IMG/VR virus record: IMGVR_UViG_3300048918_000427
Location: 1 to 26,612 of that record
DNA length: 26,612 nt
Source: a virus
Reading direction: 5' to 3' (one strand)
This document shows positions 3,169-23,435 of this stretch, piece after piece. The translations under genes were made by a program, and so were the position numbers. The notes under the pieces are model-generated. The model ran no database searches. It was not told the origin of the DNA and was given only the letters and a program-made list of their open reading frames with translations. Position 1 is the stretch's first letter; each line of letters starts with the position of its first letter.

Positions 3169-3393
3169 ATGACTTTCTCTCTTTCTATCGAAACCACTGA
3201 CGGCAAGACCTTCCCCTGGAAGTTCCTGTCCAAACTCACTGAAGACCAGGCGCGCACTGTGGCCATCAGCCACTTCAACGCCCGCCGCCACTACCGCCTG
3301 CCGGTCGTATCGGTCGCCTTGATCAAAGACGGCCAGGTGTGGGACGTGTACGACGGCCAGTGGGCCACCACGATTAACGGCTGGTGGAACTGA
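3169..3393 (+). CDS. Hypothetical small protein (74 aa)
   Basis: The start is ATG 3169, preceded by CCGGAG at good spacing. An in-frame ATG at 3124 lies inside the promoter -10 region and is rejected. The product begins MTFSLSIETTDGKTFPW and ends DGQWATTINGWWN, and looks like a small beta-rich fold with several aromatic residues. I do not recognise the family. It is the first gene of a coupled operon and its stop overlaps the next start (TGATG), so it is probably translated together with the cyclotransferase-like gene. Confidence 0.7.
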   Translation: MTFSLSIETTDGKTFPWKFLSKLTEDQARTVAISHFNARRHYRLPVVSVALIKDGQVWDVYDGQWATTINGWWN

Positions 3394-3995
3394 TGGCTAA
3401 AAAGAATAAACTCTACGTCCCTCGCCAGCGCTTCCATTCGTGGAGGCGCTTCGCTCGGCCGAGACGGGCTTTGGTGTGGGCTTACGGCTCAAACCTCAGC
3501 ATCGACCAGATGATCGACCGTTGCCCTTCAGCCTCGCCTATCGACAAGCTGACGCTCGGGAACACGCGCATAGTGTTCCGCGGCTTCGCTGACCTTGAGA
3601 CCCATGAGGGGTCCACGGCTGCCGGCGGGCTCTGGCGCATCGACCAGAAGTGCGAAGACGACCTTGACCGGTTCGAGGGCCTGTACCGGAAGCTGTATTT
3701 CATCGTGACCCACGGGTCAGAGCAGGAAGAGTGCCTGTTCTATCAGATGCGGTTCCCCCACGGGATCATGCCTCCGACCCAGGATTATTACGACCGGATA
3801 GCCGAAGGCTACCGGGACTTCGACCTGCAAATGGACACGCTGGAGAACGCCTTGGCTCATTCCTATGAAGACAAGGCCCTGACCCAGCAGCTATGGGAAC
3901 GGCGGAAGCGGCAGGGCAAACCCCCTTACGCTTTTCACCTGACCCCGCAAGACCTGAAAGAAGTAGGCATTAACCCGAAAAGGAAACGCGCATGA
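3393..3995 (+). CDS. Gamma-glutamylcyclotransferase-fold protein 1 (200 aa)
   Basis: VWAYGSNL near residues 28-35 matches the substrate-loop motif YGSNL of the GGCT family, and LDRFEG further on holds the usual catalytic Glu position. Known family members release 5-oxoproline from gamma-glutamyl amino acids or gamma-glutamyl amines; the phage substrate is unknown. A basic N-terminal extension precedes the fold and a basic tail (NPKRKRA) ends it. The start is ATG 3393 in a TGATG overlap; an upstream in-frame GTG at 3384 is less likely. Next gene overlaps by ATGA. A second GGCT-fold gene lies at 7289. Confidence 0.85.
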   Translation: MAKKNKLYVPRQRFHSWRRFARPRRALVWAYGSNLSIDQMIDRCPSASPIDKLTLGNTRIVFRGFADLETHEGSTAAGGLWRIDQKCEDDLDRFEGLYRKLYFIVTHGSEQEECLFYQMRFPHGIMPPTQDYYDRIAEGYRDFDLQMDTLENALAHSYEDKALTQQLWERRKRQGKPPYAFHLTPQDLKEVGINPKRKRA

Positions 3996-5445: not shown

Positions 5446-6927
5446 ATGGACCCCACCGTTCAGCAACAGAAATTCATCACTGCCCTCGTCAGCACCACCG
5501 CCAATATCGCGTTGGTCGCCAGGGCCGGAACCGGCAAGACCACCACCATCCTGCTCGGCGTCGCCGCTTACCATTCCGCCTATCCGCAGGATGAAGTGGT
5601 CGTCTGCGCTTTCAATAAAGCTATCGCCGTAGAGATCCAGGGCAAGTTGAAGGCCCAGGGGTACGACTGGCGCAAGGTCCAGGGTTCGACAATCCACGCC
5701 CTCGGCAATTCCATTCTGCAGAAAGTTTTCCCCTCCCAGATCGAGGGCAAGAAAATCCTGAACCTGGTTAAGGCCAGGAACGAGCCAGTCTTCGCCCAGT
5801 ACGGCGCGCAGATCATTTCCCTCGTCCGCTACGCCAAAGGCGCAGGCGTCGGGTTTTTCCAGGATATGCCGATCGGTGATCTGTCGGTCTGGTACAGGCT
5901 GGCTGAGCATTACGATATCAACGGTTTCGACGACACGTCAGAAATGGATGCTGTCGTGGCTGCCGCCCAGTCGATTTACCAGGCCTCCCTCGCCCAGACC
6001 GATATCATCGACTTTGACGATATGATCCTGTTCCCGCTGATTAAAAACCTGCGGGTCAGGTTCCCGAAGGATCTGGTCATCCTCGACGAAGCGCAGGACC
6101 TTTCCCGCGCCCGCCAGGCCTTGGCCAAGAAATTCGTCAAGCCGTTCACTGGCCGAATGGTTATCGTCGGCGACGACAAGCAGGCGATCTACGGGTTCTC
6201 CGGCGCGGACGCTGAAGCCCTGCAGAACCTCACGGTCGAGCTGAACGCCGTGACCCTGCCTCTAACGGTGACCTGGCGCTGCCCACAAGCGGTGGTCCGT
6301 GAGGCCCAACGGCTGGTGCCGGATATCGAGTGCGCCTCGACCCGTGAAGGTGAAGTCTTGCACCTGGACGCCCTGCCTGAGCTCACTGCGATGGACGCCA
6401 TTCTGTGCCGGAACACTGCGCCTCTTATCACCCTGGCCTATGGCCTGATCCGCAAAGGCGTCCCCTGCAAAGTCGAAGGCCGGGCGATCGGCGAAGGCCT
6501 GCTGACCCTGGTCGATCGCTGGAAGGTTTCTTCAGTCGACTCGTTCCTCCGCCGCCTCGAAGATTACCGGGCTCGAGAGATCCAGAAAGCGATGGCCCGC
6601 GGTAATGACGCCAAGGTCGAAGAGGTCACAGACCGAGTGGAAACCTTGGTCCAGATCTGCCAGGCTGTCACCGCCCGCCGGCTGCACACGCTGGAGGCAG
6701 TGCGCCAGTTCATTAACGACCTGTTCGCGGACGATGTAGCCGGGGTCTTGACCCTTGCCACTTATCACCGCAGCAAGGGCAGGGAATGGGGCAGGGTTTA
6801 TCTCTGGGAGCATTCTAAGCGTTGCCCCTCCCGCGCTGCTCGGCTGCCCTGGCAGCAAGAACAGGAACGTAACCTGGCCTACGTCGCCATTACCCGCGTG
6901 AAGGAGACCCTCGGCTATGTCAATTGA
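5446..6927 (+). CDS. UvrD/PcrA-like SF1 DNA helicase (493 aa)
   Basis: Helicase motifs appear in order: Q-motif region near residue 7, Walker A ARAGTGKTTT (25-34), motif Ia STIHALG (81-87), Walker B VILDEAQD (211-218), motif III GDDKQAIYGFSGAD (242-255), motif IV TWRCPQAVV, motif V LATYHRSKGREW and motif VI AYVAITR near the C-terminus. All ATPase residues look intact, so it is probably an active 3'-5' translocase acting in replication, recombination or repair. At 493 residues it is shorter than UvrD (about 720), with reduced 1B and 2B regions. ATG 5446 has CAGGAG upstream. It overlaps the next gene by 11 nt. Confidence 0.93.
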   Translation: MDPTVQQQKFITALVSTTANIALVARAGTGKTTTILLGVAAYHSAYPQDEVVVCAFNKAIAVEIQGKLKAQGYDWRKVQGSTIHALGNSILQKVFPSQIEGKKILNLVKARNEPVFAQYGAQIISLVRYAKGAGVGFFQDMPIGDLSVWYRLAEHYDINGFDDTSEMDAVVAAAQSIYQASLAQTDIIDFDDMILFPLIKNLRVRFPKDLVILDEAQDLSRARQALAKKFVKPFTGRMVIVGDDKQAIYGFSGADAEALQNLTVELNAVTLPLTVTWRCPQAVVREAQRLVPDIECASTREGEVLHLDALPELTAMDAILCRNTAPLITLAYGLIRKGVPCKVEGRAIGEGLLTLVDRWKVSSVDSFLRRLEDYRAREIQKAMARGNDAKVEEVTDRVETLVQICQAVTARRLHTLEAVRQFINDLFADDVAGVLTLATYHRSKGREWGRVYLWEHSKRCPSRAARLPWQQEQERNLAYVAITRVKETLGYVN

Positions 6928-7219
6928 CAAAGCCCGTATCCCGGCCCTCATGGCAGTCACTGACTACATGAGGGTCGAGTCTATCTTGGTCGAAAACTAC
7001 GGCCAGATCGCGTTAAGCGACCCCCAAGGATTGCATGAGCGATCGTTGGCTGCTGCGTTAAACCGGGCTGAACTGAAAGGACGGCCTGTGTCTGCAGAAT
7101 CAATGTTGGTTGAGTTGACATTGTTCCAGAAATTAACGCCAAGAAAAGCGCATAAGTTCATGATAGAAATCGCCGCTCTTCTGGCTCCGGAATTCGAAAG
7201 AGAAAGAAATATCCAGTAA
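6917..7219 (+). CDS. Hypothetical helical protein (100 aa)
   Basis: ATG 6917 lies inside the end of the helicase gene, with AAGGAG upstream, so it is coupled to it. The predicted protein is soluble and largely helical, with a central SDPQGLHERSLAAALNRAEL segment and a charged end (EFERERNIQ). No known motif or family is recognised. Close coupling suggests a helicase partner or accessory factor (inference). A promoter for the next operon starts 8 nt downstream and no terminator is seen between them. Confidence 0.7.
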   Translation: MSIDKARIPALMAVTDYMRVESILVENYGQIALSDPQGLHERSLAAALNRAELKGRPVSAESMLVELTLFQKLTPRKAHKFMIEIAALLAPEFERERNIQ

Positions 7220-7226
7220 AAGATGA

Positions 7227-7255
7227 TTTACTTATCCATAGGTTCATGACATATT
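7227..7255 (+). promoter_or_regulatory. Sigma70-like promoter, family member B
   Basis: TTTACT (7227-7232), 17-nt spacer beginning TATCCATA and ending TCATGA, CATATT (7250-7255), then TTCAAATCAACCCC and CGGAGAC. Nearly the same as the promoter at 3107 through to the ribosome-binding site. Confidence 0.82.
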
Positions 7256-7288
7256 CTTCAAATCAACCCCTGACCAACGGAGACTCAA

Positions 7289-7675
7289 ATGACTAAGGTG
7301 TTCGTGTATGGCACGCTCAAAAAAGGTTACTGGAACCACTCTCGGTTCATGAAGAACGCCCACTTCCTCGGGACCTGCCAGACGGCAGACCGCTATGTGA
7401 TGATCGGCCTCGGCTCGACTGTGCCGATGATCCTGTCGTCAGGCAAAGGCAAGCCGGTCCGCGGGGAACTCTATGAAGTTCCTGAGTCGGACATGCCGGC
7501 GATCGACCGCCTCGAGGGCGGCTATCGGAAGATCCGCAAGTACGTCGTGATGGACAGCGGCAAAGCAATCTTGGCCAGTTACTATGTCGGCCGGGACGCC
7601 TATGGCAGTGACACGCCGAAATGGGACGCTGGCAACGTCTTCAATTATCACCTGGAGGATGCATGCAATATCTGA
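7289..7675 (+). CDS. Gamma-glutamylcyclotransferase-fold protein 2, AIG2-like (128 aa)
   Basis: The N-terminus has VFVYGTLKKG, the hallmark of AIG2/GGACT-type cyclotransferases, followed by VRGELYEV and IDRLEGGYRKIRKYVV, which holds the catalytic Glu position and the final strand. Family enzymes cleave gamma-glutamyl amines or related isopeptide-like products by cyclisation. The length is typical for a stand-alone domain. ATG 7289 is preceded by CGGAG. It is only distantly similar to the protein at 3393, so the phage has two different members. The next tiny gene overlaps its end by 13 nt. Confidence 0.88.
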   Translation: MTKVFVYGTLKKGYWNHSRFMKNAHFLGTCQTADRYVMIGLGSTVPMILSSGKGKPVRGELYEVPESDMPAIDRLEGGYRKIRKYVVMDSGKAILASYYVGRDAYGSDTPKWDAGNVFNYHLEDACNI

Positions 7676-8629: not shown

Positions 8630-8775
8630 TGGAAATCATCGTTCAGATCATGTCTGAAATAATTGAGGATCACGCTCTTGAGCTGGCTCTTCGGACGGGG
8701 GATTATCTGCAGGCTTCGGAGCTTCTGGAGCTAGCGCATAAGTTACAAGGTCGATCCCCGCTTCACGAAACATAA
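8629..8775 (+). CDS. Possible small helical protein (48 aa), convergent with dCMP deaminase gene
   Basis: ATG 8629 is fused to the previous stop (TAATG), as in other coupled genes here. The product (MEIIVQIMSEIIEDHALELA start, then LQASELLELAHKL) is acidic, amphipathic and helical, which looks protein-like. However, 128 nt overlap the 3' end of the minus-strand dCMP deaminase gene, and that end encodes only a Pro/Glu-rich tail. Either both are read or one end is incidental. No family is recognised. Confidence 0.4.
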   Translation: MEIIVQIMSEIIEDHALELALRTGDYLQASELLELAHKLQGRSPLHET

Positions 8776-9148
8776 GCAGGGTAAACTGCGCGTCTGACGC
8801 CCAAGGCTCCCGGTCAAGAGGAGCCGGCGACAGAACCCGTTTCACCCCCCTCGAGACAATCGACTTAGCGCACTGGCTGCAGGGGAACATAGTCGTCGCG
8901 ATCGTCTGGATCTCAAACTTAGCGTGATCGAGGACGTTCCTTTCAGCGTGCTGCGTCAAGGCGTATTTCGTCACCTGATCCTGCAGGCGTTCCGGCGTGT
9001 CTGCCACGCCAGGCGGGAAGCCATTATAGCCAAGGGCCAGGTCCTTTCGGTTGACCCCGACTGCGACTGCCCCGACCTTGGTCGTGTCCTTGCTCCACTG
9101 GGCGACGTGATAGGCCAGGTTGATATGGCGGACGTCCCAGATATCCAT
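8648..9148 (-). CDS. Deoxycytidylate (dCMP) deaminase (166 aa)
   Basis: The zinc-dependent deaminase signature is complete: HAERN (residues 67-71; His67 ligand and Glu69 proton shuttle) and PCSQCA (89-94; Cys90 and Cys93 ligands). TKVGAVAV and GYNGFPPG match the nucleotide-binding part of dCMP deaminases. The enzyme converts dCMP to dUMP, feeding dTTP synthesis. The last 25 or so residues are a Pro/Glu-rich tail beyond the usual domain. ATG 9148 overlaps the MazG-like stop (ATGA), so both enzymes are made from one minus-strand operon with the upstream helicase gene. Pairing with a possible dCTPase fits a pathway drawing on dCTP. Confidence 0.92.
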   Translation of the reverse strand: MDIWDVRHINLAYHVAQWSKDTTKVGAVAVGVNRKDLALGYNGFPPGVADTPERLQDQVTKYALTQHAERNVLDHAKFEIQTIATTMFPCSQCAKSIVSRGVKRVLSPAPLDREPWASDAQFTLLMFREAGIDLVTYALAPEAPKPADNPPSEEPAQERDPQLFQT

Positions 9149-9528
9149 CAGACGAGATCCGACAGGTCAGGGGCAGTCCAGCCATCCGGTTTCACCACGT
9201 CATGCTTGGACTTACGGGCTGAGTTCGACCCGTCCGGCGCAGCCTTGATCTTCTTCATGTTGGCTGCGTGGACCCGTCGCCAAGCTTCGTCGAAGTCGAA
9301 CCCCGCCAGGTAGGCAGTCCCCATCGCCACATAGCAAATATCGACCAAGGCGTCAAGTTTCTTTTCCAGGGTCGAGGCGTAGCGGTATTCGTCCAGTTCC
9401 TCTTCCATGAACCTGAGGCGGAAGGGCTCGAGGTCAGGCGGCAGGATACGCGGCGGCCCGTCGTAAGTCAAGTCGAACTTAGTGTGAAATCCAATAATAT
9501 CGTCAAACATACCGTATCCTTCTTTCAT
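9148..9528 (-). CDS. MazG-like nucleotide pyrophosphohydrolase, possible dCTPase (126 aa)
   Basis: The helical core has FRLRFMEEELDEY, where Glu residues of the ExxE type bind Mg2+, and KLDALVDICYVAMGTAYLAG with the following Asp. This matches the all-alpha NTP pyrophosphatase (MazG/phosphoribosyl-ATP hydrolase) group of phages, as does the C-terminal KPDGWTAPDLSDLV. Such enzymes split (d)NTPs to monophosphates; relatives include dCTPases and dUTPases, and the substrate here is not decided by sequence. ATG 9528 overlaps the helicase stop (ATGA). ATG 9510 has AAGGA at ideal spacing and could be the true start. Confidence 0.85.
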   Translation of the reverse strand: MKEGYGMFDDIIGFHTKFDLTYDGPPRILPPDLEPFRLRFMEEELDEYRYASTLEKKLDALVDICYVAMGTAYLAGFDFDEAWRRVHAANMKKIKAAPDGSNSARKSKHDVVKPDGWTAPDLSDLV

Positions 9529-10934
9529 ACTACCCACTCCCGTTTGGGGTCCTGCAGGACCACAGTTGCTAAGTCGATCTTTTTCCTCATGGCATAGATA
9601 ATTTTATATTCCACCGTGTCCCGGGTCATGAAGTCGATCACGGTCACCCGGTCTTGCTTGCCCATGCCGGACGCCCGTTCCTCGCTTTGATCCCTATGTT
9701 CGAGGTTGTCCGTATTGGAATAGTAGACGATCAGCGACGCTTCGGACCAGTCCCTGCCCCTGCCGCCCGAGGCGGGGGTGGCGACCATGAACCTGCACTG
9801 TTCATCTTCCTTGAACTGGCGGCTGTTAGCTTCGCGGGTCTTGCGGTTGTGGCCATAGAAATCAACAGTCGACCATTCGCCGAATTCTTTCCTCAGCGCC
9901 GCGACCACCTTCTGCAGGTCTCGGGTATAGCTGCACCAGATCACAGCCTTGCCGTCGAAGTCGGCTAGCAATTCAACTAGGCTTTTCGTCCTGTTCTCTG
10001 GCACCGGGTAGACGTTCTTGGCTTCGTCTGTTACCCAACCACAGCAGAGCTGGTGCAGGCGCAGGGTTGTGGTGATAGACTGCTGGGACGTCATAAACAC
10101 TCCTGGCAGGACTTCGGCTGTGGCGTTTTCGTCCATCTCCCGATAGATCCGTTCCTGTTCTGGCGTCATCTCGACTTCGCGGGTGACGTACAGTTTCTCA
10201 GGAACGTCTGTGCAGTCTTTCAGCAGTTTCCGGTAGGACCAGGGGGAAAGCTTGTCCCACAGCTCATTGATATTATCCGTGTACCGAACAGGGACTTTGA
10301 TGCTGTACTTGCCGCCGACCCGCATGTGGCGGATGACTGCATACCGCTGCTCGAAGCCAGTGTATGAACTGAACCCCAACAGGCCTGGCCGCAGGAATTC
10401 GAACTGGCTCCATATGTCCAGGGGCGACCGAGGCGTAGGGAGCCCCGATAGAATACGGGCCTTGGTCGCCATCGGCCGCAGGATCTTCAGGACCCGTGTC
10501 CTGATCGCGTCCTCAGTCTTCAGGGTGACAGACTCGTCGATGACTAAGGTCGACTCGCCCCGCTGCAGGATATTGGCGCAGGCGTGCCGGATGCTGTCCA
10601 TCGAGGAGAAAGCTTCGACGTTGGCGACCAGGATATTCTGCCTGCCTTTATCTTTATTGTCCAAGACATTCTTAACAGATTTGATACCCCGCCGGCTGTC
10701 CCAAACCCCGATCACGGGGCGATCTGGATCTTCTAAATGTTTCTGAAGTTCCGTTTCCCATACGCGGTACGCGCCGGCGGGGGCGACAACGACCAGGTTC
10801 CTCCCACTAGACCGTTGCCAATCGTCAATCGTGACTTTCGTTTTACCAGTCCGCATCTGCATTAATAGGGCAAAGACGTCCTGGCCGTCCATCCTCTTGA
10901 GGGCTTCGGTCTGGTGGGCGTAATCGGGGAACAT
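9525..10934 (-). CDS. SNF2-like SF2 DNA helicase (469 aa)
   Basis: N-terminal MRTGKTK (27-33) is the Walker A motif, VVVAPAGAYRVW is motif Ia, VIDES (131-135) the Walker B position and SGLPTPRSPLDIW motif III. The C-terminal lobe has AVIWCSYTRD (motif IV), FMVATPASGGRGRDWSEA (motif V) and DQSEERASGMGKQD (motif VI). It is a compact phage SNF2-type translocase with DES in place of DEAH. Many phages encode one near replication genes; it probably remodels forks or recombination intermediates. There is no Shine-Dalgarno before ATG 10934 and a promoter ends 7 nt upstream, so the mRNA may be leaderless. Confidence 0.9.
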   Translation of the reverse strand: MFPDYAHQTEALKRMDGQDVFALLMQMRTGKTKVTIDDWQRSSGRNLVVVAPAGAYRVWETELQKHLEDPDRPVIGVWDSRRGIKSVKNVLDNKDKGRQNILVANVEAFSSMDSIRHACANILQRGESTLVIDESVTLKTEDAIRTRVLKILRPMATKARILSGLPTPRSPLDIWSQFEFLRPGLLGFSSYTGFEQRYAVIRHMRVGGKYSIKVPVRYTDNINELWDKLSPWSYRKLLKDCTDVPEKLYVTREVEMTPEQERIYREMDENATAEVLPGVFMTSQQSITTTLRLHQLCCGWVTDEAKNVYPVPENRTKSLVELLADFDGKAVIWCSYTRDLQKVVAALRKEFGEWSTVDFYGHNRKTREANSRQFKEDEQCRFMVATPASGGRGRDWSEASLIVYYSNTDNLEHRDQSEERASGMGKQDRVTVIDFMTRDTVEYKIIYAMRKKIDLATVVLQDPKREWVV

Positions 10935-10941
10935 GAGTATG

Positions 10942-10970
10942 ATAATAAACCAGTCCGGCCCTGGTGTACA
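10942..10970 (-). promoter_or_regulatory. Promoter for the SNF2-like operon, leaderless
   Basis: On the minus strand TGTACA (10970-10965), 17-nt spacer, TATTAT (10947-10942). The -10 lies 7 nt before ATG 10934, which places the transcription start at or within one base of the start codon. Confidence 0.7.
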
Positions 10971-10993
10971 TATCTTATTTTATAGTATATGAC
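10965..10993 (+). promoter_or_regulatory. Promoter for the 11027 operon sharing a -35 with the opposite strand
   Basis: TGTACA is self-complementary and is followed on the plus strand after 17 nt by TATGAC (10988-10993). The same six bases serve as -35 for the minus-strand promoter. An alternative -10 (TATATG, 15-nt spacer) overlaps it. Confidence 0.5.
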
Positions 10994-11026
10994 ATCAGTT
11001 CTTACCATGACGAAAGGAAAACCCCG

Positions 11027-11206
11027 ATGACCAAACTTCGCCTCAACGACTACCAAGCAGCCAAATATCGCCGCGCCCTGCAGCATGCAGGCTTCGCCAT
11101 TCCCGCCAACGCCGACAAGGTTGCGCTTTATCGCATGGTGATCGAGCGTGAGATTGACATGACCTCGTGGCGCTATCGCCCGACGCCAAATCTGGGCCGC
11201 GTCTAA
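11027..11206 (+). CDS. Hypothetical small basic protein (59 aa)
   Basis: ATG 11027 follows AAAGGAAA at good spacing; a longer in-frame start at 10964 lies in the promoter and is rejected. The protein begins MTKLRLNDYQAAKYRRAL and has a middle VALYRMVIEREI helix and an Arg-rich end (SWRYRPTPNLGRV). It is basic and probably helical, and could bind DNA. I recognise no family. It is first in an operon of small genes leading to the asparagine-synthase homologue, and a hairpin follows 1 nt after it. Confidence 0.7.
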   Translation: MTKLRLNDYQAAKYRRALQHAGFAIPANADKVALYRMVIEREIDMTSWRYRPTPNLGRV

Positions 11207-11230
11207 AAAAAAGCCGCCCTTCGGGGCGGC
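11205..11230 (-). terminator. UUCG hairpin after the 11027 gene; a terminator only in the minus direction
   Basis: GCCGCCC (11213-11219), TTCG, GGGCGGC (11224-11230). A run of A precedes it on the plus strand, so a T-run follows it only on the minus strand. As plus-strand RNA it is a very stable UUCG tetraloop that could protect an mRNA end or reduce read-through to the next gene. Confidence 0.6.
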
Positions 11231-11255
11231 CCCGCCTGACAAAAGGAACACAACA

Positions 11256-11405
11256 ATGATCAAGATCTTCGCCACTGGCGCAGCTCTGGCCGCCGCCCTC
11301 CTGACCTTCGACGCCCGCGCCGCCGCCTTCCACGCCACGCTGGAATGCCACGGCGGCCGCAACGTCGTTCTCTACCTCTGCGACGGCCAAGGAGAATCCC
11401 TATGA
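11256..11405 (+). CDS. Exported small protein with two Cys (49 aa)
   Basis: AAAAGGAAC precedes ATG 11256. Residues 1-24 (MIKIFATGAALAAALLTFDA start, then RAAA) form a typical signal peptide with an Ala-x-Ala site. The mature part is about 28 residues with two Cys (LECHGG and YLCDG) that could form a disulfide in the periplasm. The stop overlaps the next start (ATGA), supporting a real gene. The function is unknown. Small exported phage proteins often alter the envelope or block superinfection, which is only a guess here. Confidence 0.7.
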   Translation: MIKIFATGAALAAALLTFDARAAAFHATLECHGGRNVVLYLCDGQGESL

Positions 11406-11602
11406 CTAAAGTTGAAAAAATCATCGATGAAGTCAGCCTGGCCTCTGAGGCCTGCGTAGATAAGGAATATATTATATACGCTCGGGTTCTCGACCAGATC
11501 AAGTCTGGCCTGGCAGGGGGCGGGGATGAACGTATCGCCACAAAACTCGGCCGCAAAATCAAGGAAATCATCGAGGATGACGGACATCAAGCAGCTAACT
11601 GA
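11402..11602 (+). CDS. Hypothetical small helical protein (66 aa)
   Basis: ATG 11402 overlaps the previous stop (ATGA), with AAGGAG upstream; a longer frame from 11345 would run through the exported-peptide gene and is rejected. The product (MTKVEKIIDEVSLASEACVD start) has alternating charged and hydrophobic residues, with IKSGLAGGGDERIATKLGRKIKEIIED as its second half. It is probably a compact helical protein. No family is recognised. It overlaps the next gene by 26 nt, so the three small genes are translated as a unit. Confidence 0.7.
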   Translation: MTKVEKIIDEVSLASEACVDKEYIIYARVLDQIKSGLAGGGDERIATKLGRKIKEIIEDDGHQAAN

Positions 11603-11894
11603 CGAACGATCTAAAACCCACGGCGACTTTAACGACGTCTCCAATACGGCCCAAGCGTTAAAGTCGATCGTCCGCCAGGGCAAGGCTTACGGCAAGTTCA
11701 CGCCGACTCAGGCTGAAGGCCTGGACATGATCTTGCACAAGATCGCTCGCTGGGTCAACGGCGACCCGAACTTCCTTGAACACCTTATTGATATCGAAGG
11801 TTACGCCCACGCCACCCGTGTCCGGATCAAGCCTGAGCTGCGGGCGTCAGTGCAGGAAGCTATCGAGTCGGCGATCCATGGCCAAACGCCCTGA
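11577..11894 (+). CDS. DUF6378-like phage protein (105 aa)
   Basis: The start ATG 11577 follows ATCGAGG; an upstream in-frame start at 11526 would overlap even further and is less likely. The protein has ERSKTHGDFNDVSNTAQALK, then QAEGLDMILHKIARWVNGDP and a final LIDIEGYAHATR. This HGDF...LDMI.HKIAR...D..GYA pattern fits the DUF6378 type found in many phages, which has no fixed role to my knowledge; its His and Asp arrangement is reminiscent of a helical NTP-binding fold. The family label is from memory. Confidence 0.75.
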   Translation: MTDIKQLTDERSKTHGDFNDVSNTAQALKSIVRQGKAYGKFTPTQAEGLDMILHKIARWVNGDPNFLEHLIDIEGYAHATRVRIKPELRASVQEAIESAIHGQTP

Positions 11895-11988
11895 AGTTCG
11901 GATTGTTATGAAAGCAGCTTGGACCCCGGAAAGGCGAAAAATGCAATCTGAGTTAATGAGTATCGGTCGTCGAAGCGGGAGGATTTAG
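11878..11988 (+). CDS. Possible short basic protein (36 aa)
   Basis: ATG 11878 lies 17 nt inside the previous gene, and a second ATG at 11908 would give 26 residues. The product ends MKAAWTPERRKMQSELMS and IGRRSGRI. This WTPE.R..QSE pattern resembles the short basic helical tails of phage proteins. There is no clear Shine-Dalgarno, so translation would rely on coupling. It fills the gap before the asparagine-synthase gene exactly. Confidence 0.45.
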   Translation: MAKRPEVRIVMKAAWTPERRKMQSELMSIGRRSGRI

Positions 11989-11990
11989 CC

Positions 11991-13295
11991 GTGTGTGGGT
12001 TCCTCGCTCAGCTGGGTCACGACCAGTTATTCGACACAGCTTTCTTAAAAGTCCGGCATCGAGGCGTCCGCTCTAAAATCATGGGGAACATCGGCGGCCT
12101 GATGGGCCACGCGCGGCTGCCGATCGTCGGGCTGGATGAGTCCTATGACCAGCCGGTCGCTGTCGGTTCTTGGATGATCTGTTTCGTCGGCGAGGTCCTG
12201 GATTTTCGCGACCATGAACAGGATGAATCAGACTTGCCGTTGGTCGTCGAAGGCTGGATCGAGCATGGGCCGAAGGCCTTAGTCGGGCATGACGGGTTCT
12301 GGAGTATCGCCGCCATGTCTAATACTGAGCTGCATGTGGTGGCTGACTATCTTGGGCAGAAGCCGATTTATTACCGACCGGACGTGCTTGCGGCCGGGTC
12401 GGAGCCTGACGCCCTCGCCGCCCTCGGCCCGACTACCCCGGACGAAATCTATCTATCCAGTGTGATTAAATGGGGCTATTGCCCACAGATCGAGCGAACG
12501 CCCTACCGGGAGATCAAGCACGTCCTGCCGGGGGAGCACGTCTGCATGAACAAGGAGGGGGACGTCTATCGCAATATCATAGACCCCCTCGAGCCTAGAG
12601 CAGGTGACCTTAGGCTGGAGCTCGAGGCTGCCGTTCGCCGGAGAGTCTTGGCCGCTGACGTGCCTGTAGCGAGCCTGCTGAGCGGGGGTTTAGACTCGTC
12701 CATTGTTCACACCCTGGCAGCCAGACATGGGGACGTACACCCGCTCTACGTGGCCCTGGAAGAGGATCTGGGGGAAAGGCTGGCTGTCTCCGCTGTTGGT
12801 GGGGAAGTTCGGGAAGCCTATGGCTACTGGCCGGACGACGCCACAGCCCTAGGCTACATGCAAGAGCCAATCGACTTAGGGTCGCTCAAGCCCCAGATCC
12901 TCCTTTCCCAATCCGTTCCTCAGATTGTGTGCCTGACTGGCGACGGGGCGGACGAGCTGTTCTCCGGTTATGGCCGAGCCATGCGGTACGACTCCCAGTA
13001 TACCGACGTCTTTCATGAGCTCCCTGCCTGGCACTTGCCCAGGCTCGATCGGGTCATGATGCGCCACAGAGTCGAGGTCCGGTCGCCGTTCCTCGCCCGC
13101 AGGGTAGCGGAGATCGCCTTGTCCCTCCCATACAAAGCCCGGAAGAACAAGCAGATCCTGCGGGACTTGTTCAAGAATGATCTGCCGCCAGGGATTGCTG
13201 AGGGGAAAAAGAAACCGCTTCGGCCCTTGGACTTCGATCAGGAAAAACGGTCCAAACTGCTAGTCGCCCAGTTCCGGGAATTGACCTGGCCATAA
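11991..13295 (+). CDS. Asparagine-synthase homologue (class II glutamine amidotransferase plus synthetase domain, 434 aa)
   Basis: GTG 11991, after GGGAGGA, gives Met-Cys-Gly, placing the nucleophile Cys2 of class II amidotransferases. The N-terminal domain has HRG (23-25) and HARLPIVGL; but the NGE motif that supplies the oxyanion-hole Asn in AsnB reads VGE (66-68). The synthetase domain has the PPi loop SGGLDSS (231-237) and GDGADELFSGY (317-327), both intact. It is shorter than AsnB (about 554). The family makes amides from an acid, ATP and glutamine or ammonia. The substrate may be Asp, but a phage-specific acid such as a modified nucleotide is possible. Confidence 0.88.
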   Translation: MCGFLAQLGHDQLFDTAFLKVRHRGVRSKIMGNIGGLMGHARLPIVGLDESYDQPVAVGSWMICFVGEVLDFRDHEQDESDLPLVVEGWIEHGPKALVGHDGFWSIAAMSNTELHVVADYLGQKPIYYRPDVLAAGSEPDALAALGPTTPDEIYLSSVIKWGYCPQIERTPYREIKHVLPGEHVCMNKEGDVYRNIIDPLEPRAGDLRLELEAAVRRRVLAADVPVASLLSGGLDSSIVHTLAARHGDVHPLYVALEEDLGERLAVSAVGGEVREAYGYWPDDATALGYMQEPIDLGSLKPQILLSQSVPQIVCLTGDGADELFSGYGRAMRYDSQYTDVFHELPAWHLPRLDRVMMRHRVEVRSPFLARRVAEIALSLPYKARKNKQILRDLFKNDLPPGIAEGKKKPLRPLDFDQEKRSKLLVAQFRELTWP

Positions 13296-13315
13296 AAATA
13301 AATACTCGATTGGGG

Positions 13316-13344
13316 TTTACTTTTTATGAAATATGACATATATT
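13316..13344 (+). promoter_or_regulatory. Sigma70-like promoter, family member D
   Basis: TTTACT (13316-13321), 17-nt spacer, TATATT (13339-13344), preceded by TGACA as in the other family members. It drives the 13383 gene; GGAG follows before the start. Confidence 0.7.
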
Positions 13345-13382
13345 TTTATCCGTAGGGATCACCCCTATCGGAGAACAAACAA

Positions 13383-13754
13383 ATGGACTTAAATAGTTGC
13401 CTCCTCGGGCTCGAAGAGTTTGGGTTGTGGGAACGTCAGGTTGACGGGACATTCGTTATTACGTCATCCGGCCACTGTATGATCAACCCTGAAGCTTGGC
13501 CTTTACCGCCAGGGCCGACAGGAAAAGAAAAAAAGCGTACCCGTTCGATAGACGACGGGGAAATCGAAGCAGCCGATGGCTACCTCCATCGTCTGGTTGA
13601 ACTGGGTTTCCTAACTGAGGAAAAAGGTTCTGGTGGGATCTTTTATGTCACTGACCTTGGTTCCACCCGGATCAGGAATTTCCCCGGAGCCTTGAACCCC
13701 GGCGAACTTGGTTATTCTGCAACTTTACCAGTAGGGGCAAGATCCTTCCACTAA
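13383..13754 (+). CDS. Hypothetical protein, possible winged-helix regulator (123 aa)
   Basis: ATG 13383 follows CGGAGAAC at good spacing. The two halves each look like a short winged-helix: a LEEFGLWERQVDGTFVITSSG block and a DGYLHRLVELGFLTEEKGSG block followed by FYVTDLGSTR, a helix, turn and beta-hairpin order common in DNA-binding proteins. A linker with Pro and Lys (PGPTGKEKKRTRSIDD) separates them. No family is recognised. Having its own promoter fits a regulator, but DNA binding is inferred only from pattern. Confidence 0.7.
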   Translation: MDLNSCLLGLEEFGLWERQVDGTFVITSSGHCMINPEAWPLPPGPTGKEKKRTRSIDDGEIEAADGYLHRLVELGFLTEEKGSGGIFYVTDLGSTRIRNFPGALNPGELGYSATLPVGARSFH

Positions 13755-13959
13755 AGCCCAGCCGAAGGTGGCGCATATAACATCGGCAATACGTCGGGGA
13801 GCGTCCACGTGGCCGTTCCTTTCCTCTGGCCTTGCATGGCTGACGGCGTTGTGGTGGAAGCTCGGAATAAGCCGAGTGTGAAACTGTGGCGCTCGTTGGC
13901 TCCGGAGTTAATCCCAGGACGTGTCGGGCAGTTCGGCCCGTTATCAATGAGCTACGGAG
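13755..13959 (+). other. Intergenic stretch with hairpins, possible small RNA
   Basis: Several local inverted repeats are seen, including CTCGGAATAAGCCGAG (near 13859) and CGGGCAGTTCGGCCCG (near 13926), and the stretch ends in a strong terminator. A 74-codon open frame from ATG 13836 runs through the terminator into the next gene but lacks a ribosome-binding site, so I treat the region as non-coding. Confidence 0.4.
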
Positions 13960-13990
13960 CCCTGGATCGAAAGGCGGTCCAGGGTTTTTT
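13960..13990 (+). terminator. Rho-independent terminator
   Basis: CCCTGGATC (13960-13968) pairs with GGTCCAGGG (13976-13984) around a 7-nt loop; TTTTTT (13985-13990) follows. It separates the 13383 gene from the methyltransferase gene, which would need its own promoter or read-through. Confidence 0.85.
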
Positions 13991-14044
13991 CGCATCGGAC
14001 ATCCGCCGATCGCTGCGGTACACATTTAAAAAAAGGATCGACGC

Positions 14045-15283
14045 ATGGCCAAGGAATTAACAGCCATAGGAATTACCTGCGGGATTGGCTCGCTGCTGAT
14101 TGGCGCACGGTCTGCAGGATTCAAAGTCCTTGGCAATGTCGAGTGGAGAAAATATTACCACGAGACAGACGACCGTGGCCGGGATACGTTCACTGAAAAT
14201 TTCCCTGGTGCTATTTTCCCATATAGCCGAGAGCGCATGACCGAGGAAGAATTCCTCAGGTTCAGCAATCCTGACATCGCCTTGGCTCATCCTGAATGTG
14301 GAAACTTCAGCCAACTTAGTGGGTCCAATACCAATCGCGTCGAGAAGTTAAGTGACCCTGGGGACATCCCATTATTCGTAGAATTGGTTAACCAGTTTAA
14401 CCCCCGCTTTTTCGTGATGGATGATCTGCCCCGATCATTCATAGCCTACCCTATGAGCAAGTATGCCGAAGCTTTGCCTCAGTACGACCTATTCCCTGAA
14501 TGGGTCAGCAATTGGGGCTACGGCAATATCCAAAAGGGTCGCAATAGGCTTTTCATGCTGGGCGCTCTACGGAAAGAAAAATGGGCGTTTATTCCAGGTG
14601 AAATGGAACATAACTTGACAGTCCGAGACGTGATCGGCGACATGGGCGAGCCTGGCAGGTCCAACTATCCGAACCACGATCCCCATGATAACTCCCTTGA
14701 CTGCTTCCGCGCCTTGAACTGCGGCGGTTATCGGAAGCATAATTCCTGGGCGGAGACAGCCGAATATTTCCAAGACAAGAAGGGCGGCTACACCCTTGGC
14801 TATGAGCGAGTCGACGGTAGCATGGTGAAGCGGATCGGTTTCTTGAAAGGCCATTGGGACGGCCCTGCTCATGTTCTGACCGGCGGCAACGCGACCGTTC
14901 ACCACATTCGTTGCGACCCGTACACAATCAGGGAGCGCGCCCGCATCCAAGGCTTCCCTGATGATTTTATTTTCTATGGGTCCATCCTGAACGAGCGTGG
15001 CGAATGGTGCCACGACACCAATAACCACATGGTCAGGATGACCGGCAAGGCTATGCCGATCCAGTTCGGTGAGTACGTGTCCAAGCAGATCGCTGCGTTC
15101 ATAAATAAAAAACCGTTCCAGGCCAGCCGCCGCCGGGTCCAGAAACAGAATGAATATGTGAACGCCGCCAAGGAATGGTATTGCAAAGAGGTCGGTTACT
15201 CCAACCAGGAAGCCGCCTGCCGGGAATGCTGGCTGAAACAGAACTGCCTGATCCGCCAAGAAAAATATTCTATTGCCGCTTAA
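14045..15283 (+). CDS. C5-type DNA cytosine methyltransferase with atypical motifs (412 aa)
   Basis: AAGGA precedes ATG 14045. Motif I is GITCGIGSLLIGA (9-21), the SAM-binding loop. Motif IV reads HPECGNFS (82-89) where the family usually has GPPCQ.FS; the catalytic Cys85 is kept. Motif VI reads MDDLP (125-129) in place of ENV, so the usual Glu is an Asp. Motif VIII is QKGRNRLFML, motif IX RERARIQGFPDDF (296-308) and motif X GKAMPIQFGEYV (334-345). The protein ends in a Cys-rich tail with Cys 380, 392, 395 and 401. It likely methylates phage DNA or protects it; whether it methylates the usual C5 of cytosine is unclear. Confidence 0.85.
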   Translation: MAKELTAIGITCGIGSLLIGARSAGFKVLGNVEWRKYYHETDDRGRDTFTENFPGAIFPYSRERMTEEEFLRFSNPDIALAHPECGNFSQLSGSNTNRVEKLSDPGDIPLFVELVNQFNPRFFVMDDLPRSFIAYPMSKYAEALPQYDLFPEWVSNWGYGNIQKGRNRLFMLGALRKEKWAFIPGEMEHNLTVRDVIGDMGEPGRSNYPNHDPHDNSLDCFRALNCGGYRKHNSWAETAEYFQDKKGGYTLGYERVDGSMVKRIGFLKGHWDGPAHVLTGGNATVHHIRCDPYTIRERARIQGFPDDFIFYGSILNERGEWCHDTNNHMVRMTGKAMPIQFGEYVSKQIAAFINKKPFQASRRRVQKQNEYVNAAKEWYCKEVGYSNQEAACRECWLKQNCLIRQEKYSIAA

Positions 15284-15292
15284 TGTCTGGGA

Positions 15293-15329
15293 TTGTCCGA
15301 TGGACAACCCCATAAAAAGAAGACATATT
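15293..15329 (+). promoter_or_regulatory. Promoter with overlapping palindrome, family member E
   Basis: TGGACA (15301-15306), 17-nt spacer, CATATT (15324-15329). The -35 lies in the perfect palindrome TTGTCCGATGGACAA (15293-15307), which is a good repressor-site candidate. It reads into the gene at 15356. Confidence 0.7.
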
Positions 15330-15355
15330 CATATCTCCTTTGACGGGAGAATGAT

Positions 15356-15736
15356 ATGTCAAAAGTCAGCCTGAGCATTGTTGATAATTCACAGAATATA
15401 AACCCTGACGGTTCGAATGACCGGCAATTTGATTTCGGAGTGCCGTGGTTCAGTGAACAATGGGTCACGTGGAAACAAGGTCAAAATGGAAAACCTGACC
15501 GTCTTTGTTTTTCTATGTATCCTAAGGGCAGCGATTGGAAACATCGAGACGACACAACTAAACGTATGACTTTGATGAGTTATATCGGCGGTCTCCCTTT
15601 AATTAGGAAAAAAGAATGGGAGTGTAAAATGGAATTAAAAGGGGAAGACGCCCCTTATCATTACGTTGAACTGCCCACCGTAATAGATTGCCCTACGTGT
15701 CAAGGATTAGGGAAATTATATGATCTTCCTCGGTAA
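15356..15736 (+). CDS. Hypothetical protein with CxxC end (126 aa)
   Basis: ATG 15356 has GGGAG six bases further up; an ATG at 15351 stops after a few codons in another frame. The body (IVDNSQNINPDGSNDRQFD, EQWVTWKQGQNGKPDRLCF) is soluble and beta-rich looking. The end reads IDCPTCQGLGKLYD, similar to one half of a DnaJ-type CxxCxGxG zinc finger. I know of no family. It overlaps the thymidylate-synthase-like gene by 17 nt and likely supports the same process (inference). Confidence 0.75.
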   Translation: MSKVSLSIVDNSQNINPDGSNDRQFDFGVPWFSEQWVTWKQGQNGKPDRLCFSMYPKGSDWKHRDDTTKRMTLMSYIGGLPLIRKKEWECKMELKGEDAPYHYVELPTVIDCPTCQGLGKLYDLPR

Positions 15737-16571
15737 CAGTGTTTCCTTCCAGGCGATCCGCGAAGAGATCCGAATGCGGTTCGCCGCTGCACCCCTCGTC
15801 CAGACCGAACGCTGGCAGGGGGTCGCAGCCAACCAAGACACCCGCGAACTGCGGAACGTCTGCTTCGAGGTCTACCTGAAGGGGGTTGAGGACTTGGATC
15901 ACTGGCGGGAGGATATCCAACCGAACCTGCCGTGGGCAGACCGACACTTTGAGGACGAAAGAGTCGGAGGCCAGCCACTAAACCCCGGCGAGCAGTGGAA
16001 GAACTGGCCTTACGCCAACTCGGCGTCCAAGTTTAAAACTGAACGGTTCAATCATTCCTATATGGAACGGCTGTGGCCAAAGTACGCCAGGCGAACCACT
16101 GGCGGGACCTTGGCCAAGGGGAAAGCCCTAAGGAAGTATCCGCTTACCGACCCCAGACCCTTGCAGGGGATCGGCCACAGCTACGGCGACCTGCAGGATC
16201 TGGTCGAGCTGCTGGCCAAGGAACCTTACACCCGCCAGGCCTATATCCCGTTGTTCTTTCCTGAGGACACTGGCCTCGGCGACAGCGGCCGCAAGCCTTG
16301 CACCTTAGGCTATCAGATCATCGTGCGGGACTCGGAAGCCCATATCTGGTATCCTTTACGGTCCTGCGATTATGTCAGACACTGGGCGGACGATTGCTAT
16401 ATGGCCGTCCGCTTGCTATTGTGGGTCATGGAGGAATGCCGGCAAAGAAATTCTGACTGGAAGCAAATTTCCTGTGGCACATTTTCCATGCATATGACAT
16501 CATTGCATATCTTTTCCACAGATAGGCTAAATGATGAAATCGACCGGGCAACAACTCGTTCAGCAGATTGA
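15720..16571 (+). CDS. Thymidylate-synthase-fold enzyme, dCMP-type (possible dCMP hydroxymethylase, 283 aa)
   Basis: The fold follows ThyA: TRQAYIPLFFPEDTG (171-185) matches the Arg-rich loop, RKPCTLGYQ (191-199) places Cys194 at the catalytic Cys, RSCDYVRHWADDCY (214-227) matches the ThyA RSCDVFLG block, and SMHMTSLHIF gives the His-x-Tyr/Phe end. The residue in the place of ThyA Asn177 is Asp225. In ThyA this Asn reads dUMP; T4 dCMP hydroxymethylase (gp42) has Asp there, and Asn-to-Asp mutants of ThyA accept dCMP. So dCMP is the likely substrate, with transfer of a methyl or hydroxymethyl group from a folate. ATG 15720 has AGGGAAA upstream. Confidence 0.82.
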   Translation: MIFLGNSVSFQAIREEIRMRFAAAPLVQTERWQGVAANQDTRELRNVCFEVYLKGVEDLDHWREDIQPNLPWADRHFEDERVGGQPLNPGEQWKNWPYANSASKFKTERFNHSYMERLWPKYARRTTGGTLAKGKALRKYPLTDPRPLQGIGHSYGDLQDLVELLAKEPYTRQAYIPLFFPEDTGLGDSGRKPCTLGYQIIVRDSEAHIWYPLRSCDYVRHWADDCYMAVRLLLWVMEECRQRNSDWKQISCGTFSMHMTSLHIFSTDRLNDEIDRATTRSAD

Positions 16572-21105: not shown

Positions 21106-21284
21106 TTTTGTATTCCTGGTTTCGCCCAACAGTCCAGCGGTTGGTCTGTGTTCAACTGTTTGACCTGCTTGCAGATGTCTGCTGACGGCATTTGGATCGT
21201 AACGGCCGGGACCGGCTCGCATTTGCCAGGGCATTGCGCCCCGTGCAAGAAGACGATCAGGAACCAGACGAGATTGTCAGTCAC
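21102..21284 (-). CDS. Exported Cys-rich small protein (60 aa)
   Basis: ATG 21284 overlaps the last fibre gene's stop (ATGA) and the end overlaps the next start in the same way, which supports translation. An N-terminal hydrophobic segment (LVWFLIVFLHGAQC) is a probable signal peptide or anchor. Cys 18, 22, 38 and 52 suggest two disulfides in the periplasm. No family is recognised. The three coupled genes following the fibres look like an envelope-acting cassette. Confidence 0.7.
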   Translation of the reverse strand: MTDNLVWFLIVFLHGAQCPGKCEPVPAVTIQMPSADICKQVKQLNTDQPLDCWAKPGIQK

Positions 21285-21958
21285 CGGCGTCCACGGGCAA
21301 GCGCCGTCACCGTGAACGGCACTGGCGCAGAGGTCGACAGCACTGGGCCATTATGGATCTGCACCATCACAGCCTTCGCTGTCGTCGGCGTGTAGGTGAA
21401 GGTGACGTTATCTGAGCCGTTGTATGTGGTCGGCGTGTCGACGCCGTCCAGGGTAATCACCGTGGCGCAGTAGGGCTCGTCAGCGAAGTCGTTGCCGTCC
21501 AGGCGCACCGTCACCGGCGCGCCGCCCACCGGGGCGGTAGGCGGGATCAGCGCGACGATGTTCGGGTTGTTGATGACGTAGAGCGGGGCAGGCGGGAACG
21601 CCGCCAGGCCGCCTTGCTCGACCGAGACCGTATGCTGCCCCCATCCAGCTTGCGCGACCCCGAGGGGGAAGCTGACCTGGGTAGCTGAAATGAATGTCGT
21701 CGGCATAGGGTTGACACCGACGAAGGCGCGGCAGCTCGGGTCGAAGTCCGCGCCTGTGACCACGATGGTCGTCGGCGCGGCGTCCTGCAGGCCGACCACC
21801 TCCGGGCTAATCGACGTCACCGTGGGACGTACGAGGGGCGGCGGAGGCGTCGCTGCGGCTGCCTCCCGGTTCCAAGCGAAGCCGACCCATTTGTAGCTTA
21901 CGCCTTCGGGGAAGTCGACGACTTGATCAAGGACAGGCGCAGCGGGAAAGTCGAACAT
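21281..21958 (-). CDS. Tail-fibre/receptor-binding protein with IPT/TIG-like domains (225 aa)
   Basis: ATG 21958 overlaps the previous stop (TAATG); an in-frame start at 21988 is less likely. The first 30 residues (MFDFPAAPVLDQVVDFPEGV, then YKWVGFAWNR) are the shared fibre module. A Pro-rich linker leads to two IPT/TIG-like immunoglobulin domains: TVTSISPEVVGLQDAAPTTI and IVALIPPTAPVGGAPVTVRL each begin with the typical I.P..G......I pattern. This fits a virion side fibre or surface-binding protein. It is the last fibre of the array. Confidence 0.8.
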   Translation of the reverse strand: MFDFPAAPVLDQVVDFPEGVSYKWVGFAWNREAAAATPPPPLVRPTVTSISPEVVGLQDAAPTTIVVTGADFDPSCRAFVGVNPMPTTFISATQVSFPLGVAQAGWGQHTVSVEQGGLAAFPPAPLYVINNPNIVALIPPTAPVGGAPVTVRLDGNDFADEPYCATVITLDGVDTPTTYNGSDNVTFTYTPTTAKAVMVQIHNGPVLSTSAPVPFTVTALARGRR

Positions 21959-22896
21959 TATCCTATATCCTCTACCCAGAAGTCCCAAGCGTTGACTGAC
22001 TGGTGAATGCCTTTATTGACCACTGTGATCTTGCACATCTTGTCAGTCTCAGGCGGCGGGTTGATATCAAATACCAGGATCAGCTCGGTGCCGACGACAT
22101 TCGGGTCGACCCAGGTGCTCTTGGCGACGCCATCGAGGTAGCAGATGGAATCATTCCCCATCATGCCCCAGCCCCACACCTCGATGTGGTTCACGTTCGG
22201 CGTCCACTCCGAGTAGTAGTCTGGGTAGGTCGAGCGGATCTTGAAGCGCGGCTCGGTGAGAGTAATACTTTGATCGGGTGAGAGCGTCGGTTTGACGTTG
22301 ACGGGGCACGGCACGGTCGGCGGAGGCTCTGTCGTCCAGGGATAGTAAGGCGGCGTCACTGTCGCCGTAAGCTCAGTGGCTGAGACGAAGGTCGCCGGCC
22401 AGGCAACACCTGCTACCACAACTTGATCCCCTGCCAGGAAGTTCGCTCCCCGCAGGGTCAGGGTAACTGGCTCATTCATCGTGCCGACGTTTGGACTTAC
22501 AGAAGTCAGCCGCGGGCCGTCATATGTGATCGGCAGGTTATTGCTCGGGAAAGTCCCGGTGATATCGGTGTTCAGCACGCGGACGCTCTTCGACGTCGGC
22601 CCACCCCTGGCGGAGGAAGACACCGTGGCGGTCATCGCCGTCGGGCTGACGTAGCTGCTCGTCACCGTAGCGCCGTCGACTTGCACGACGCTGGTCGGCA
22701 AGAACCCACTGCCGTTGACCTGGATCGAAGCAGGCGCCGCCCCCTGCAGGCCAGTGTTCGGAACCAGACTTGTGAGAATGGCAGAGGGCACCGAGACGTA
22801 GGGCGCGCGGTCCCAGCGCACGCCGGTCCACACAAACGACGCGCCGCCGGAGAAGCAGTGCTGGCCGACAGTGGGTGTATCAGGCCAGTCGATCAC
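21958..22896 (-). CDS. Tail-fibre protein with IPT/TIG-like domains (312 aa)
   Basis: ATG 22896 overlaps the previous stop (ATGA). The N-terminal module (MIDWPDTPTVGQHCFSGGA, then FVWTGVRWDR) is a divergent copy of the shared module. Two IPT/TIG-like domains follow: ILTSLVPNTGLQGAAPASIQ and LTSVSPNVGTMNEPVTLTL. The last third (HIEVWGWGMMGNDS, DPNVVGTELILVFDI) looks like a third beta domain. IPT/TIG domains often bind sugars or proteins, so attachment to the host surface is likely. Confidence 0.8.
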   Translation of the reverse strand: MIDWPDTPTVGQHCFSGGASFVWTGVRWDRAPYVSVPSAILTSLVPNTGLQGAAPASIQVNGSGFLPTSVVQVDGATVTSSYVSPTAMTATVSSSARGGPTSKSVRVLNTDITGTFPSNNLPITYDGPRLTSVSPNVGTMNEPVTLTLRGANFLAGDQVVVAGVAWPATFVSATELTATVTPPYYPWTTEPPPTVPCPVNVKPTLSPDQSITLTEPRFKIRSTYPDYYSEWTPNVNHIEVWGWGMMGNDSICYLDGVAKSTWVDPNVVGTELILVFDINPPPETDKMCKITVVNKGIHQSVNAWDFWVEDIG

Positions 22897-23432
22897 GCAG
22901 CTACCCAGGCGGCGTTCTGGCGAACGTACTTAGTTCCATCGACTGGCGCTTCGTCAATCGCCACCTCGACCCATTGGACAGAGGTGCCGTCGTCGACCCA
23001 GACATGCAGGCTGGCGTCGGTCGTGTCGAACCATAGCATTCCTGGGGTCGGACTGGTGGGCGGCGTATCGCCTGAGTGCAAACCAAGCGGCTGCACCGGC
23101 TCCCAGCCGGCGTTCTTCCTGCCGTAGACACCATCGTTGGATGGCGCGTCGGCGAGCGGCGGCGGGATCTCGGCCCACGCTGCGTCCTTGCGGCTGTACG
23201 GCTTGGCGTCGAGCGGAGCCTCGGGGATGCCGCCGCCCATTGTCGACGGCACCCAGCCGGCGTTCTGCCTGGAGTACGGGTTGCCGGTGGAAGGAGCCTC
23301 CTCGACGTACTTGACCGAGGCTACAGTCGCTGGCCGCTTCCACGCGATCCCGTCCCAGACGTAGTTCACGCCGGTCGCCGTGTCGGTGAAGACCGTGTCC
23401 GGGAGCGGGTTGGCTGGGAAGTCAAAAGCCAT
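22893..23432 (-). CDS. Repeat-containing tail-fibre protein (179 aa)
   Basis: The shared module (MAFDFPANPLPDTVFTDTAT, then YVWDGIAWKR) opens the protein. Four copies of a roughly 18-20-residue repeat, EAP.DG..Y.R.NA.WV, follow at about residues 44-61, 70-87, 95-111 and 161-177, typical of trimeric fibre rods. Between them a TPGMLWFDTTDASLHVWVDD block resembles blocks in the protein at 25106. The start is ATG 23432 with AGGAAG upstream, three bases after the previous stop. Confidence 0.8.
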   Translation of the reverse strand: MAFDFPANPLPDTVFTDTATGVNYVWDGIAWKRPATVASVKYVEEAPSTGNPYSRQNAGWVPSTMGGGIPEAPLDAKPYSRKDAAWAEIPPPLADAPSNDGVYGRKNAGWEPVQPLGLHSGDTPPTSPTPGMLWFDTTDASLHVWVDDGTSVQWVEVAIDEAPVDGTKYVRQNAAWVAA

Positions 23433-23435
23433 GGT

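Follow-up and report, generated by a model that had tools for sequence, protein, structure and literature searches.

What would a virus make with a thymidylate synthase (TS) homologue, a MazG-type pyrophosphohydrolase, a dCMP deaminase and a homologue of the C5-cytosine DNA methyltransferases (C5-MTases), all encoded in one region? The question is raised by IMG/VR record IMGVR_UViG_3300048918_000427, which was analysed over its entire 26,612 bases (the window) and is probably a phage fragment. An earlier note had read these four genes as a T4-like pathway for replacing dCMP by hydroxymethyl- or methyl-dCMP, with an ordinary C5 DNA methyltransferase alongside. The four open reading frames (ORFs) are borne out by Pfam and PHROG matches and by motifs, and the note overlooked a fifth gene, encoding an asparagine-synthetase (AsnB) homologue (11991-13295, + strand), which is a near-constant companion of the C5-MTase homologue (14045-15283, +). 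Together with the TS-like enzyme (15720-16571, +), the altered C5-MTase homologue and the AsnB homologue form a trio that probably builds a bulky cytosine in phage DNA. The favoured reading, given a probability of about 0.6, is a two-stage cytosine hypermodification that is not T4-like, in which a module resembling CmoX and CmoY is coupled to a TS-family dCMP enzyme.

Linkage of the trio across viral loci

A scan of viral contigs with the single TS protein gave no matches and a family alignment was needed; the alignment-based scan recovered 435 viral TS relatives, of which 80 loci were read. The AsnB homologue lies near TS in 10 of the 80, nine of which also carry the C5-MTase homologue, and in the tenth (L040) the latter is farther off, in locus L119 of the same contig. 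An independent scan with the C5-MTase homologue alone returned 42 viral loci, which contain the AsnB homologue (38/42), the TS homologue (37/42) and a dCMP deaminase (32/42), several of those missing AsnB or TS being short contigs. None of the 42 encodes the partner, an unannotated protein family of 260-350 amino acids without a Pfam match, encoded immediately ahead of TS in another class of phages (for example, by alignment, L001:14144-14983, L003:11942-12730 and L004:6637-7446). When the sets are combined, TS is accompanied by the partner in 51 loci and by the C5-MTase/AsnB pair in 41 (with some contigs counted twice, and 32 distinct TS sequences including that of the window), and there is no overlap between the two. 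The partner family bears invariant C115, R136 and D147 residues spaced as in TS, a hint that it may be a degenerate TS paralogue or heterodimer subunit; an hhalign comparison of the partner and TS profiles was not significant. The window ORF at 15356-15736 was considered as a candidate for the missing partner and rejected by comparison and profile search.

The trio stays together through varying gene orders. A compact operon of kinase, AsnB, MazG and C5-MTase homologue, with or without TS, is present in loci L030, L054 and L072, and L021-L023 share the arrangement of the window, where the deaminase, MazG and SNF2 genes lie on the opposite strand. A small protein without a Pfam match is encoded upstream of AsnB, in the place of the kinase, in L106 (612-1127), L020 (4839-5258) and L024 (4317-4700); its sequence begins with (I/L)(I/V)(L/V)G..NP(H/Y), faintly like a uracil-DNA-glycosylase motif.

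As a control, 84,980 bacterial and archaeal genomes were scanned with the C5-MTase homologue. A single genuine family member turned up, in a Myxococcaceae metagenome-assembled genome on a contig of 75,335 bases, equal in length to the IMG/VR contig of L115, along with 79 ordinary C5-MTases, mostly of 21-26% identity. Among the loci of the latter, an AsnB homologue is present in 1/79 and a TS homologue in 0/79 (p of approximately 1e-25 by Fisher's test, with no correction for ancestry). Among INPHARED isolates, neither the C5-MTase homologue nor the AsnB homologue has a close match, the best full-length ones being approximately 24% and 23% identical, respectively, and the searched literature contains no paper in which thymidylate synthase and asparagine synthetase are brought together with DNA modification in phages. 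As far as these isolates and papers go, the gene combination is undescribed.

Residues and folds of the enzymes

The TS homologue falls below the Pfam TS model and matches the PHROG_160 thymidylate synthase family at 3.8e-23, with relatives of up to 50% identity, nearly all of them full length, in 105 phage records. In an alignment with E. coli ThyA and T4 gp42, it retains Cys146, Arg126, Arg166, Ser167, Asp169 and His207, bears Thr at position 147 and Asp at position 177, and lacks the C-terminal TS tail. The dCMP-type Asp noticed in the earlier note, at the position of E. coli TS Asn177 (T4 Asp179), is present in 85/85 distinct relatives, as is the catalytic Cys. The Asp at 177 and the Thr at 147 recall the TS homologues of the modified-cytosine contigs delineated by MetaGPA, which are marked by Asp177 and an altered position 147 and co-occur with PRA-PH and dCMP-deaminase domains (PMC8670742). 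An AlphaFold model of the enzyme (predicted local distance difference test score, pLDDT, 85.8) was compared with known structures by Foldseek, and the CMP hydroxymethylase MilA, the flavin dCMP hydroxylases 9IQC and 9IQU, and T4 gp42 all outrank any dUMP-type TS; the sequence profile likewise places MilA and 9IQU/9IQC on top. Residues and predicted fold together make dCMP a well-supported substrate. Ordinary dTMP synthesis was rejected on the basis of Asp177 and of ThyX, since some relatives with this TS also encode ThyX and would have no need of it for dTMP.

The enzyme is predicted to install a C5 substituent on dCMP, for which hydroxymethyl, hydroxyl and methyl groups are all candidates. 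The hydroxymethyl- or methyl-dCMP product expected in the earlier note did not fare well. The position of T4 Asp145, three residues before the catalytic Cys, is occupied by Arg in 85/85 relatives; the gp42 D145N replacement abolishes hydroxymethyl-dCMP formation, and an Asp or Glu at this site has been proposed as the hydroxymethylase signature (PMC6400193). Moreover, the product is not fixed as hydroxymethyl because a flavin dCMP 5-hydroxylase is among the closest TS-fold matches to the model; a 5-hydroxy-dCMP synthase of the TS superfamily is also known (PMC13390438). No clear equivalent of T4 Ser94-x-Tyr96 is apparent, the N-terminal half of the alignment being poor.

The C5-MTase homologue matches PF00145 at 7e-13, and its model (pLDDT 93.9) displays the C5-MTase fold, with CmoX (8YF3) placed eighth among the PDB matches. 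An alignment of 30 members, no pair more than 85% identical, reveals a rewritten active site around a preserved nucleophile, the motif IV Cys (30/30). The PPC motif became H-x-[ED]-C, with His82 three residues before the Cys (30/30) and Glu or Asp immediately before it (29/30, the other being Tyr); ENV became D[DN][LN], with Asp126 replacing the motif VI Glu (30/30); and Lys335 replaces the motif X Asn of the controls (30/30), the window sequence reading HPEC, DDL and TGKAMP at these sites. The ribose-binding Glu (29/30) and the adjacent Trp (27/30) are kept, and the motif I Phe and adenine-binding Asp are lost. Canonical PPC, ENV and GN motifs are kept in 76-78 of the 79 control enzymes, whose motif I residue is Phe. 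The label of C5-type methyltransferase therefore stands for the fold and the Cys and fails for the canonical motifs, and such systematic alteration indicates that this is not an ordinary C5 methyltransferase. The last 40 residues contain a Cys cluster (WYC...ACxxCWL...C) shared by most homologues, possibly a zinc-binding DNA-recognition module. In locus L021, a second DNA methyltransferase of the N6/N4 type (6635-7540; PF01555) is encoded between the C5-MTase homologue and TS, and a domain resembling it appears fused to the C-terminus of the C5-MTase homologue in L025 (7314-9620).

The AsnB homologue, a candidate amide ligase akin to CmoY, combines a class II glutaminase domain with an AMP-forming synthetase domain (PF00733, 5e-30; PF13522, 4e-9) and matches the structure 1CT9 at 1.5e-35. 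Its family retains Cys2, the SGG-x-DSS form of the SGGxDS ATP loop and an invariant Arg in the glutaminase domain. A small DUF6378-like protein encoded upstream (11526-11894, +; PF19905 at 0.0026, under the cut-off) is perhaps an accessory, and a similar ORF is present in 11/42 of the C5-MTase-homologue loci.

On the opposite strand, a SNF2-type helicase gene (9525-10934, -; PF00176, 5e-18) leads the MazG-deaminase operon and links a replication gene to the module. The MazG/PRA-PH nucleotide pyrophosphohydrolase (9148-9537, -; PF01503, 1.5e-10; PHROG_671, 1e-23) starts at a GTG at 9537 or an internal ATG at 9528, and the dCMP deaminase (8648-9148, -; PF00383, 9e-16; PHROG_174, 2e-32) bears the zinc motifs HAE and PCxxC, as TQHAERN and PCSQC in the translation. 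Its homologues in L021 and L023 are 61-63% identical and lie in the matching deaminase-MazG-SNF2 order. Isolates with this TS (Strzyga, PMBT14, Almagne, Serbin, YenM_P744, Troje, SheckWes, Zuko and others) carry a cassette of a P-loop kinase, a MazG- or dUTPase-like pyrophosphatase, the partner, the TS homologue, a dCMP deaminase or ThyX, and a family-A polymerase, and this conserved cassette places the linkage of TS homologue, MazG-type pyrophosphatase, kinase and deaminase beyond chance. The window MazG, encoded on the strand opposite to TS, is tied to the same pathway because it is 51% identical to a pyrophosphatase of Brevundimonas phage Strzyga whose gene lies two positions upstream of that for the TS homologue.

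Elsewhere, the window encodes a primase-helicase, UvrD, a family-A polymerase, a Cas4-like nuclease and tail-fibre-like proteins, the last as a run of ORFs at 21281-26611 (-) with repeated IPT/TIG-like segments discerned by eye. No terminase or capsid gene was recognised among the searched window ORFs. Two ORFs of the gamma-glutamylcyclotransferase (AIG2-like) fold (3384-3995 and 7289-7675, +) are not conserved with the module and were rejected as members of it, being present in at most 3/42 loci. Depletion of GC or CG dinucleotides, as a trace of modification, was not found.

A proposed two-stage pathway and its alternatives

The gene content, near-obligate linkage, conserved residues and folds described above are consistent with a scheme whose substrates, step order, cofactor and product are proposed as follows. 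At the nucleotide level, MazG would clear competing nucleotides of the (d)CTP type, and dCMP would receive a C5 substituent, most likely hydroxymethyl or hydroxyl, from the TS-family enzyme. The deoxynucleoside monophosphate kinase found in relatives would charge the modified dCMP for replication, and the dCMP deaminase would feed dTMP synthesis. At the DNA level, the Lys-type C5-MTase homologue would flip the modified cytosine, its Cys would attack C6 and a carboxylate-bearing group would be installed, with Lys335 holding the carboxylate of carboxy-S-adenosylmethionine (carboxy-SAM) or of another donor. The AsnB homologue would then adenylate and amidate that carboxylate. A hypermodification of the CmoX/CmoY kind is indicated by the altered C5-MTase motifs together with the near-obligate asparagine-synthetase partner, and a single pathway is suggested because TS is linked as tightly as AsnB and because residues on both the base and the cofactor side of the C5-MTase homologue are changed. 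Addition to a substituted base has chemical precedent, as C5-MTases can couple nucleophiles to 5-hydroxymethylcytosine (5hmC; PMC7176277). In its most specific form, put forward tentatively as a possibility that falls short of an even chance, the C5-MTase homologue is repurposed onto 5hmC or 5-hydroxycytosine made by TS, with AsnB amidating the product, and provides a third route to hypermodified cytosine; the conserved Cys and the H-x-[ED]-C/Asp pocket would then activate the substituted base for the carboxylate-bearing addition.

Several observations weigh against the two-stage scheme. Linkage is the sole indication that the C5-MTase homologue acts on what TS produces, and the co-occurrence statistics are uncorrected for shared ancestry. 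Two of four CmoX adenine/ribose contacts (F25 and D69) are lost in the C5-MTase homologue, which renders the cofactor uncertain, and a tblastn search with E. coli CmoA found no match in the window or the fetched loci (flanks of at most 10 kb), such that carboxy-SAM would have to be supplied by the host. Where E. coli AsnB has its oxyanion Asn, the AsnB-homologue family has Val, Ala or Ser, such that its glutaminase domain may not be that of a normal glutaminase and the amine donor is likewise uncertain. Finally, the window fragment lacks a kinase; in line with the earlier note, which saw neither a nucleotide kinase nor a glucosyltransferase, no nucleotide kinase or glycosyltransferase was found, the sole P-loop ORF being the primase/helicase.

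Some of these genes might instead serve two independent modifications, with the C5-MTase and AsnB homologues converting the unmodified cytosine of a short motif into 5-carboxymethyl- and then 5-carbamoylmethyl-cytosine, and the TS-MazG-deaminase set separately altering part of the dCTP pool or serving nucleotide supply. A Lys at the carboxylate-binding position and an AsnB partner fit CmoX and CmoY directly, and the second-largest ligase cluster in the CmoY study also carries a glutaminase domain (PMC12783734). Such a division is nevertheless rather unlikely, as TS is linked as tightly as AsnB (37/42 loci), the ENV Glu and PPC motif, both retained by CmoX for its plain cytosine substrate, have been altered in this family, and the CmoA search was negative.

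The T4-like replacement proposed in the earlier note, combined with an ordinary C5 DNA methyltransferase, is improbable. It draws on Asp177, MazG and the deaminase, and on the dCMP methylase of XP12-type phages (named in PMC5175136), and part of its joint pathway survives in that a dCMP-directed TS-family enzyme, MazG and deaminase are indeed linked, with a kinase in relatives. The epithet T4-like does not survive, given the Arg at the site where T4 requires Asp145 (PMC6400193), the departure from the C5-MTase signature motifs, the near-obligate AsnB and the lack of a glucosyltransferase. In addition, a canonical C5 methyltransferase fits poorly with full replacement by hydroxymethyl-dC, because no free C5 position would remain. 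Least probable of all is that no DNA modification occurs, with TS and its neighbours doing no more than balance dNTP pools and with host molecules as the targets of the C5-MTase and AsnB homologues: dCMP deaminase and MazG are frequent in phages without modified bases, but some relatives with this TS also encode ThyX, modified contigs are enriched for TS of the Asp177 type, and the fold and Cys of DNA C5-MTases are both preserved in the C5-MTase homologue.

If the two-stage hypermodification is true, it adds new base chemistry to the anti-restriction defences of phages, as well as a naturally occurring family of C5-MTase fold, rewritten in its active site, that would be useful for DNA labelling. 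It also joins two modification logics that have been described separately, namely TS-family dCMP enzymes and C5-MTases paired with amide ligases, in a pathway that the labels "thymidylate synthase" and "DNA methyltransferase" on such genes conceal.

Comparison with known systems

CmoX from Synechococcus phage S-B43 uses carboxy-SAM to produce 5-carboxymethylcytosine (PDB 8YF3), to which the AsnB homologue CmoY then ligates glycine; its Arg350, at the position of HhaI Asn304, binds the carboxylate of the cofactor, and M.MpeI engineered to bear a Lys there (N374K) performs the same reaction (PMC12783734). The window pair resembles this system in its C5-MTase fold, Cys nucleophile, cationic residue at the HhaI Asn304 position and nearby AMP-forming ligase of the asparagine-synthetase family. 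It differs in sequence (22% identity to CmoX), with Lys rather than Arg350, HPEC rather than SPPC and DDL rather than ENV, such that across the family CmoX Ser95 corresponds to His (30/30) and Pro97 to Glu or Asp (29/30), and the pair would fail the filter of SPPC plus Arg350 used in the CmoX paper. Unlike SpCmoY (L142:635-1450), which has no glutaminase domain, the window AsnB bears one, and the pair is coupled to a TS-family dCMP enzyme, MazG and deaminase, plus a kinase in relatives.

With T4 gp42, gp56 and deaminase the window shares the TS fold, the Asp179 equivalent, Thr after the Cys, the absence of the TS tail, a MazG-type pyrophosphatase and a dCMP deaminase. It departs from T4 in bearing Arg for Asp145 (with approximately 16% overall identity to gp42), in lacking a glucosyltransferase, in its family-A polymerase, and in a DNA-level step assigned to the C5-MTase/AsnB pair. 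The flavin dCMP 5-hydroxylase AfhB (9IQU/9IQC), a 5-hydroxy-dCMP synthase, belongs to the same superfamily, acts on dCMP and is structurally among the closest enzymes, whereas in the AfhB-like CIP9 protein Asn occupies the D169 position and Glu stands three places ahead of the Cys, and the profile match is weak (1.5e-6).

The cassettes of Strzyga, PMBT14, Serbin and Gordonia phage Troje carry the same TS family (35-50% identity), MazG and deaminase, with a kinase and the partner protein where the window has the AsnB and C5-MTase homologues. A comparable logic is displayed by the MetaGPA contigs encoding a 5hmC carbamoyltransferase (PMC8670742), in which an Asp177 TS, PRA-PH and dCMP deaminase are followed by a transferase whose substrate is the modified cytosine; there the transferase is a carbamoyltransferase, and in the window its place would be taken by the C5-MTase/AsnB pair.

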